Assembly (NCBI RefSeq): GCF_036669915.1
Contig: NC_089313.1
Span: 13,628,940 to 13,692,939 of the forward strand
DNA: 64,000 bases
Source: Pocillopora verrucosa
Taxonomy: Eukaryota > Cnidaria > Anthozoa > Scleractinia > Pocilloporidae
Direction of reading: 5' to 3'
Part shown: piece by piece, positions 35,821 to 46,982 of the stretch
How positions within the stretch are numbered: position 1 is the first letter of the stretch
Layout: each line of letters opens with the position of its first letter
Position numbers and translations under genes: made by a program
The notes under the pieces: model-generated
The model's input: the letters and a program-made list of their open reading frames with translations, nothing else
Database searches by the model: none
What the model was told of the DNA's origin: nothing

Positions 35821-38249
35821 TTAAAAATTGTTTGGAGGGGGTTCAAACAATTCCATCCCCTCTATCTCGTTCACATTGGCAGCCAACTTTTTGTTGTAGG
35901 TGTTCACTTCATTGTGGATTTTTTTCAAACAATCCCACCAAAAATACGAAAGATGTGGATTAAAAATATTACAATTGAACTTTTTCCAAAAAAGCATTAC
36001 AAACTGATTAGCTGCTGGCGAGAGTTCCTTGCCACTCTTTCGGTATCGCAGTAGAAGGTGAGTCACGAACTCTGGGTCGTCGGTTGTTCCGAAGTCTAAC
36101 AATCCTTCTCTGTCATTCTTTGGTAGACGGGAACGGCGGATCACTCGCATCGCGTCAAACATCCTCGACAGGTACTTGCTCATTTTCATCAAGCACTTCG
36201 CCACGGAAATGTTTCTACAGTGTTTGTACTCCTTATTCACCTCTCCCCAGTTTTCAATCATGGACACCCACAGGTCGTAAGTTGATAGCGGCGTGTAATA
36301 TTGACACGTGGGAATTGCTTTCATCTGAAGACCCTGTACCACATGTCGAATGGCGCCTCGGGTGTGATATGCCTGTGCAGCGTAGAGAAGAGCCTTGGCG
36401 AGGTAATCTGCGAAACAGAAACAGCGTAGTTGAACATAACTGTCAATTCAAGCCAACATGTATATGATACCAAATCCTTAGGGTTCTTTTTTTTTTTTCG
36501 GAAATTGTGACGGTTATGATTCACTAGGAAAAGGACTTCGAGTTGTCCAAATCAGACGTCCGATTTTGTTAATCACTCGTATGATTACATTCCGAATTGG
36601 GCTTCACTCGGTCCCTTTACCATTATAAACAGTTCTATAAATCTCTAGTCCGTCTAATATCTAATTACCTATTGATTGTATTTGGTAACCTCCTGTTTTC
36701 CCCTGTGACATACTTTGCAGGTACTCCTGGTACTTCTCATTGTGGGCTAATCTGAACTCAGCCAGTGGCTGCTTCTTCATTTTTCTCAAGGCCACCTGCT
36801 TGTTCATTTTTCCAAATTCTCTAAGCCAACCGAGCAACTCTTTCTTCGCCTCTTTATCTTTTATTTTTCCAATAGCTCCATTCTTCATCACCTTAAAGGA
36901 ACCTTCGTTGTACTTGAAGACCTTGTAATAAGCACTGGCCAGTTCTTGCATTTTGTACCTCCCCATTTGCTCAAATTTGCGAAGACCGGAAGTAAATGAG
37001 GGGGGAAGGTTGGGAAACATTGAGGGCATGGCAAACTCCAGAGTGTAGGCGTAAACATTTGTGTCGAATACAAGCTCCGATGGTAACTTAAAGGTTGTTT
37101 GAAAATAACTATTAAATTTCTGAGTGACGGTTCCAGAATCTTTTCCAATAAGCCCGACGTCGTAGTCTGATTTGTAAGTGGCGCTGCCATATGGTTTAGG
37201 AAAACACACTCCACCCTCGGGAATCTTCCAACTTTGTGGAATGCCGGTGTAATTGTCTCTCTTTTCCTTGCAAGCTGTTAACTTCTTCCCACTTACAAGC
37301 CAAAGAATGTGAGTAACTAAAAGATACCTAGCGGCTGTAATTTTAAGGAGTTTGTAGTTCTGATTTTTTGTCACTTTTTGTAAAAGTTCCCAAGGTGATA
37401 TGCCACGGTTTTTGTTAAATTTCAGAAAAAATTCCTCCGCCTTCTTTGCTAACGACTTGAAACTCTCGGTTCCAAGACGACCCTCAAAGGAAGGTTGTTC
37501 CGTCCACATGTCAGCTACGGGGTGTTTCTTGAAGCCATAGTTTTTTATAATTTCATCCATCCAGGTGATATCGTCTGTGGTAACTTTAGGGTCTTCCAAT
37601 CTATAACAAAGAAAAATGTCTTGTTGTAATAAAAAGAACGAAAAAGATAGTAACTTAAACCTCAGTAATGAAAGCAGACAAATGTTTTTTCTCTGTCGGG
37701 AACGTGGAAAATATCTGAGTACCATAAGGAATCAAAGCTTGTGCACCGGATTTTGCCGAAGTTTTATATGTCATTACCCTTAAACTGAGCTATAGAAATA
37801 TCATGTTTGATAGGTAAACTTCATAATAATCACTGTTTCAAATCAAGTCACGATACTTCAGTTTGACCATGGTAATTGTGATAGCGATCGATGCAAAATG
37901 TAGGCAATACAAAATACGACAAGGTAATTGTCCGATGGATTTGCAGGTGCTACGCTCCTGGTATATGCGATAAGTCGTATACCTTTCAGTAGCGCTTCTT
38001 CCTTGGAGAGGCTCAATTTCGTCGTTTTCCTGCGAATCAATCTGCTGCAGTTCGACAGAATCTACGTCGAAAATGGAGACTGGAAAGACCTCACTGTCAC
38101 AAACCTGTCATACAGTATTGTACACATTAAATAAAACTCCTTTATGTGTCTTAGCTCTTTACACCCTAACGTCAGTAAATTTATTCTCCATTCTGTTCTT
38201 GCTATGACGCCGACAAGGAGAATTTGTAGAGGTAATCACATGATTTCGA

Positions 38250-38282
<33 letters not shown>

Positions 38283-46700: not shown

Positions 46701-46982
46701 TTGCTAGACTTCGGAACAACCGACGACCCAGAGTTCGTGACTCACCTTCTACTGCGATACCGAAAGAGTGGCAAGGAACTCTCGCCAGCAGCTAATCAGT
46801 TTGTAATGCTTTTTTGGAAAAAGTTCAATTGTAATATTTTTAATCCACATCTTTCGTATTTTTGGTGGGATTGTTTGAAAAAAATCCACAATGAAGTGAA
46901 TGCCTACAACAAAAAGTTGGCTGCCAATGTGAACGAGATAGAGGGGATGGAATTGTTTGAACCCCCTCCAAACAATTTTTAA
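42338..46982 (+). CDS. Secreted nucleotidyltransferase-like protein, copy B (563 aa)
   Basis: Exons 42338-42388, 44718-44839, 45210-46141 and 46396-46982, of the same sizes as copy A (51, 122, 932 and 587 bases), all GT-AG. The signal peptide is MMSTLCILVFMLVQGHV. The GSATYKSDYDVGL motif, PSFEG block and sequon are as in copy A. Exon 3 is identical to copy A in protein sequence except for one patch, NFKTAAEKAEEF against SFKSLAKKAEEF (residues 104-115). Exon 4 differs at three scattered positions. Both copies being intact suggests that both are functional or very young. Intron 1 is longer than in A (2.3 kb) because two element units are inserted. Substrate, catalytic activity and site of action are not known; extracellular or secretory-pathway location is inferred from the leader. 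Confidence 0.75.
42885..43575 (+). mobile_element. Crypton-like miniature element, right arm unit 1
   Basis: TAATATACATGGAAAA-type inverted ends; frame 43149-43337 carries NTVKSTAFWLSVWKKWCLEK and LNTLLERSNAEIKNKHG. Mirror counterpart of 38746-39461, in gene B intron 1. Confidence 0.6.
43583..43747. mobile_element. Foldback miniature element with inner hairpin
   Basis: TAATCACATGATT ends in inverted orientation, and a central hairpin of 15-bp arms around TAC (TTGCACGAGCCC half-stem). It directly follows Crypton-like unit 1. Confidence 0.75.
43757..44463 (+). mobile_element. Crypton-like miniature element, right arm unit 2
   Basis: A second copy in tandem, with frame 44014-44256 holding NTVKSTAFWSPDWKKWCFEK and LNALLERSNAEIEKTN. 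It differs from unit 1 by substitutions and small indels, so this is not an exact recent duplicate. Confidence 0.6.
44470..44595. mobile_element. Foldback miniature element, second copy
   Basis: TAATCACATGATT ends in inverted orientation. It is the near mirror of 38234-38357 in the left arm and lacks the inner hairpin of 43583-43747. Confidence 0.75.

Follow-up and report, generated by a model that had tools for sequence, protein, structure and literature searches.

The question raised by this locus is whether a group of coral proteins with a hydrophobic leader, and with no evident relatives, may work as nucleotidyltransferases in the secretory pathway. The window, i.e., the whole analysed stretch of 64,000 nucleotides of Pocillopora verrucosa DNA, contains genes A (minus strand, 40001-35821) and B (plus strand, 42338-46982), each consisting of four exons with 563 codons and a stop (Table 1). 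The introns of both genes are of the GT-AG type throughout, the splicing being predicted from sequence. These exon models and introns agree with an earlier note on this DNA, which had described two intact four-exon genes of 563 amino acids each, and the GS(x5)DxD block that it had placed at residues 196-205 was found in both A and B as G196-S197-x5-D203-Y-D205. The genes differ in 21 nucleotides, with 8 codons carrying an amino-acid change and 11 carrying none. Each gene is carried by one arm of an inverted duplication, and across a spacer of about 275 bp the two thereby stand head to head. The arms measure about 7 kb and share about 96% identity in their two longest aligned pieces (4175 and 2303 bp). 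Intron 1 of gene A includes a long hairpin with a 3-base loop at 38370-38494 (DNA fold of -84.6 kcal/mol, z -25.6), which is perhaps a short inverted-repeat transposon.

Table 1. Positions of genes A and B, of the duplication that contains them and of broken copies C and D in the window
Feature	Position	Strand	Remarks
Inverted duplication, left arm	34188..41035		with gene A
Inverted duplication, right arm	41311..48597		with gene B
Gene A, exon 1	39951..40001	-	hydrophobic leader MMSTLSILVFMLVQGHV; GT donor
Gene A, exon 2	37983..38104	-	AG/GT borders
Gene A, exon 3	36669..37600	-	contains PYGSATYKSDYDVGL and PSELVFDTNVYAYTLE
Gene A, exon 4	35821..36407	-	contains KALLYAAQAYHTRGAIRHVV and DLWVSMIENWG; TAA stop
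Gene B, exon 1	42338..42388	+	leader MMSTLCILVFMLVQGHV
Gene B, exon 2	44718..44839	+	
Gene B, exon 3	45210..46141	+	GS-x5-DxD at protein residues 196-205
Gene B, exon 4 and stop	46396..46982	+	
Copy C	51883..55518	-	exons 55518-55468, 54683-54562 and 54177-53249; exon 4 from 52454 with in-frame TAG
Copy D	60707..61146	-	decayed piece of exon 3; G/H/I subfamily

Genes A and B are members of a family with at least 11 copies, named A-K, which are spread over about 120 kb; seven copies lie outside the window. A search of the genome (353 Mb, 52 contigs) with exon 3 of B gave at least 11 places and with exon 4 at least 10, all on contig C2, to which the window belongs, at 13.66-13.79 Mb. Exon 3 of the divergent copy J, with E values up to 1 allowed, gave at least 13 rows in the same cluster. 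All these counts are lower bounds, and in searches with these three exons no family copy was found outside the C2 cluster. Four-exon models are intact in six copies (A, B, E, G, H and I), exons 3-4 are intact in J and K (484 and 485 aa, respectively), and C, D and F are decayed; copy C retains exons 1-3 and is interrupted early in exon 4. A tree of eight proteins, built without C, D and F, divides the family with high support, subject to a long-branch warning, into subfamilies A/B/E, G/H/I and J/K, and identity to B amounts to 78% in E, 53-54% in G/H/I and 46-47% in J/K. Identities, invariant columns and column shuffles given here refer to seven paralogs (B, E, G, H, I, J and K), A being left out as near-identical to B and C, D and F as broken. 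Two neighbours of the copies were recognized by eye: open frames resembling a mobile-element tyrosine recombinase between B and C (49851-50669) and, upstream of copy K (L018, near position 3860, minus strand), the start of a frame of a CAP/SCP-like secreted protein, HNEFRSQVKPSAADM, with a stop after 66 residues.

The motif region of broken copy D reads GSATHKSDYDVGL. The view of D as a decayed copy of A or B was rejected, as this fragment is far closer to G, H and I (91-94% identity; with H, 94% over 97 residues) than to B (65% over 99). The earlier note had regarded survival of the motif in D as a sign of functional importance. The motif is indeed present, but given the 91-94% identity to G/H/I it is mostly a recent inheritance and a weak sign of selection. 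The better argument for the motif is that it is conserved between subfamilies of 46-54% identity.

This conservation extends to 165 of the 480 core columns, which are invariant in the seven paralogs and include the blocks VCFPxPYGSAxxxSDYDVGL, PSExVFDTNVYAxTLE, KMQELASAYYK, KALxYAAxAYHTRGAxRHVV and DLxVSMIENWG. Residues Y195-G196-S197 and D203-Y204-D205-V206 are invariant and follow the order hG[GS], then [DE]h[DE]h. The acids D237 (in F-D-T) and E246 (in L-E-F/Y), 32 and 41 residues after DxD, are likewise invariant, and either is a candidate for the third catalytic acid, which in the superfamily sits in an h[DE]h strand. When protein B was shuffled 20000 times, G[GS]x5DxD arose by chance in 81 cases and the less strict G[GS]x4-14[DE]x[DE] in 6427. 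A family-invariant hG[GS]x(4-14)[DE]h[DE]h was obtained in 3 of 20000 column shuffles of the seven paralogs and with a spacing of 5 in none of 20000; the test was post hoc and concerned a single well-known motif out of many, picked once the sequence had been seen. An EF-hand-like reading of DYDVGLIGKDSG was rejected by eye, against the usual EF-hand order.

The earlier note had also found the protein unlike any known family, and this was upheld, with no significant match in any library searched. Neither protein B nor the seven paralogs matched a family in Pfam or NCBIfam. None of the seven matched the nucleotidyltransferase models of these collections with E values up to 10 allowed, a setting at which HMMER filters still remove most matches above E 0.1, and the family profile matched no nucleotidyltransferase chain among PDB sequences with the same E values allowed. 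No relative was found in PHROGs and PADLOC, for which the queries were exons 3 and 4 of B alone, or in GTDB contigs, IMG/VR, plasmids and phages. Weak profile matches to VipB_2, importin-11, Pou, RecT, SpoIIIAB, SecB and one unnamed PHROG, as well as weak PDB matches to chains of a complexin and of an adhesion GPCR, were rejected as chance (E 0.018 to 1). In the open-licence literature searched, no description of such a family stood among the matches listed, and the phrase 'secreted nucleotidyltransferase' was absent. The family may be named elsewhere, e.g., in subscription literature or eukaryotic sequence databases. Structure prediction gave pLDDT 38.4 for exon 3 (4 rows) and 40.4 for exon 4 (3 rows), too low to inform on the fold; as both predictions are of low confidence, the fold is unproven.

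Profile comparison by hhalign was made between the family core (nine rows: A, B, C exons 1-3, E, G, H, I, J and K) and open frames of the same genome, namely 4 of 59 Mab-21, 6 of 23 LicD and 5 of 15 MTPAP-like matches, with L028, a sixth MTPAP match retrieved, which has internal stops, excluded. All probabilities of the family against Mab-21, LicD and MTPAP were below 1%. The pairs of known families were also below 1%, except for two MTPAP subgroups (95.5%), so the test is of little power. The family motif was aligned in register on the MTPAP motif. The score of the real MTPAP alignment was equalled or exceeded in 2 of 60 column shuffles. For the two MTPAP subsets this was so in 8 and 46 of 60, for Mab-21 in 20 of 60 and for LicD in 56 of 60, and in every set 13-15 of the 60 shuffled alignments were likewise placed on the motif columns.

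Several known families with a nucleotidyltransferase fold can be compared with the coral proteins. According to PMC11646218, the pattern of the DNA-polymerase-beta-like superfamily is hG[GS]x(9,13)Dh[DE]h, i.e., a gap of 9-13 residues, from which the coral family departs with its gap of 5. According to PMC6965139, the catalytic acids of FKRP, a protein with this fold, are Asp362, Asp364 and Asp416, and residue numbers give a gap of 15 between Ser346 and Asp362. This gap is outside 9-13, so the spacing rule is not absolute. The same paper has FKRP transferring ribitol phosphate to dystroglycan after transport of the latter to the Golgi. Thus, the statement of the earlier note that animal nucleotidyltransferase folds are all intracellular was wrong: FKRP acts in the Golgi (PMC6965139), and this genome has 23 matches to LicD. 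The LicD/fukutin/FKRP family (PF04991) resembles the coral one in having, as FKRP, a member in the secretory pathway with non-standard spacing (PMC6965139), and differs in that the coral proteins have no PF04991 match by HMMER and an hhalign probability of at most 0.8%. None of the LicD matches is in the cluster; two are about 150 kb beyond it on the same contig.

A local likeness by eye is offered by the MTPAP/TUTase family (PF22600, MTPAP-like_central), for which the profile comparison is at best suggestive. The coral PYGSA..SDYDVGL resembles PFGS..SDLDLCLL in an MTPAP-like protein encoded by this genome, and VFDTNVYA resembles its third-acid strand CDLSVNN. However, the gap between GS and DxD is 10 in L026 and L027 versus 5 in the coral family, which also has a leader exon and no PF22600 match. 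Mab-21 and cGAS-like receptors (PF03281) are an animal family with the same fold and are numerous in this genome, but the coral family has no PF03281 match, and none of the 59 Mab-21 matches is in the cluster. Counted by exon, genome matches amount to 74 for GFP, a richness indicative of an anthozoan cnidarian, 59 for Mab-21 and 23 for LicD. Given the spacing of 5, the absence of a profile match, weak hhalign results and low pLDDT, the family is not filed in the superfamily.

In our opinion, the reading to be tentatively preferred, with a likelihood just short of even, is that of a lineage-specific, tandemly amplified secretory family, whose catalytic core works like an enzyme with a nucleotidyltransferase fold. 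Its main rival, quite possible if doubtful, is a secreted family of an unrelated and possibly new fold, where GS...DYD is a structural loop and not an active site. Such a fold would fit the lack of any profile or sequence match to the nucleotidyltransferases searched, the GS-DxD spacing of 5 and the invariant prolines P192 and P194 directly preceding GS. It would also fit the position of the 12 top-conserved 16-residue segments listed, which are off GS...DxD, in exon 4 (mostly around 377) and at 231. On the other hand, the complete motif is invariant in the family, as seldom happens by chance in column shuffles, and the invariant acids following DxD are inside segment 231, one of the two leading ones.

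Coding constraint, as seen in the lower dN/dS ratios, speaks for the preferred reading. The ratio is 0.19 for A-B, 0.39 for J-K and 0.48-0.58 within G/H/I; it is higher for C-E (0.72), B-E (0.88) and A-C and B-C (0.61-0.66). In the pair A-C, exons 1-3 gave 0.61 and exon 4 gave 0.42. Three distant pairs gave 0.15-0.45, with dS above 2 in two of them. Amino-acid changes cluster at residues 41-80 and 481-560 in G-I and G-H and are more spread in B-E and J-K. Block 201-240, one of several with few changes, has 3 of 40 in B-E, 1 of 44 in both G-I and G-H and 1 of 42 in J-K. The pattern is in keeping with a core under constraint and outer regions that change faster, and the ratios of 0.61-0.88 (A-C, B-C, C-E and B-E) are also those given by relaxed constraint. 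A nucleotidyltransferase-like fold without catalysis, serving as a secreted binding or structural protein, would agree with rapid change beyond the core in some close pairs and with the short loop between GS and DxD, but none of the seven paralogs has lost either Asp of DxD or either candidate third acid, and a protein that only binds need not keep these residues; we consider this explanation quite unlikely.

The earlier note had proposed a signal peptide, and a hydrophobic first exon was indeed observed. Its 17 codons comprise nothing but the start codon and a short hydrophobic stretch, and it was found in nine of the 11 copies (A, B, C, E, F, G, H, I and J). The leader exons of F and H are weak matches when taken alone (E 0.003 and 0.006), but each is directly upstream of exon 2; exon 2 of J is a weak partial match only, and exon 1 was searched for and not found in K and D. 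The letters of the leaders diverge (H, MLLILSAMIFVFVQDRV; J, MILALSVLVFMLVHRSV), yet each is hydrophobic by eye, hydropathy having been computed for B. The core of B (residues 66-545) has seven cysteines, six of which are invariant across the eight proteins compared, and the C-termini of these eight have no shared retention-like ending. Because of the leader exon in nine copies, the six invariant cysteines and the C-termini without a common retention-like ending, secretion of these proteins is likely. An intracellular enzyme, with exon 1 unused or with the leader as a membrane anchor, would suit the sequence-based splicing and the missing exon 1 of K and D, but it is very improbable, as the leader exon with a start codon and a GT donor is present in nine copies, including J (47% identical to B in exons 3-4), and the hydrophobic run, to judge from the hydropathy of B, looks short for an anchor.

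Under the preferred reading of a secretory family with a nucleotidyltransferase-like catalytic core, exon 1 would be a cleavable signal peptide, and the mature protein, as it folds in the ER, would form up to three disulfides between the six invariant cysteines. By analogy with known enzymes, G196-S197 would grip the donor-nucleotide phosphates, and D203 and D205, together with D237 in VFDTNVYA or E246 in TLE[FY] as a third acid, would bind two metal ions. A nucleotide or phospho-group could then be transferred to a glycan, a protein or a small molecule, either in the lumen or extracellularly. In G, H and I, the observed clustering of changes may mean that the core chemistry is shared and that targets differ through residues 41-80 and 481-560. 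A bolder proposal, in our view unlikely, is an undescribed animal family of tandem secreted transferases with a shortened GS-DxD loop, which modify foreign or symbiont molecules and whose variable regions set the target.

If the active site is real, an exported member would be added to the superfamily, in which FKRP, the secretory-pathway member checked, modifies glycans in the Golgi, and an anthozoan would possess a tandem-duplicated array of secreted transferases. If it is not, this is nevertheless a conserved, probably secreted family, undescribed in the libraries searched.

Other contents of the window were recognized by eye. Three long open frames (9269-10234, 13270-14388 and 17509-18576) are similar to rhodopsin-type GPCRs, an open frame at 1306-2955 resembles an RNF14-like RBR ubiquitin ligase, and the segment 26852-27181 looks like an exon of a CDK-like kinase.
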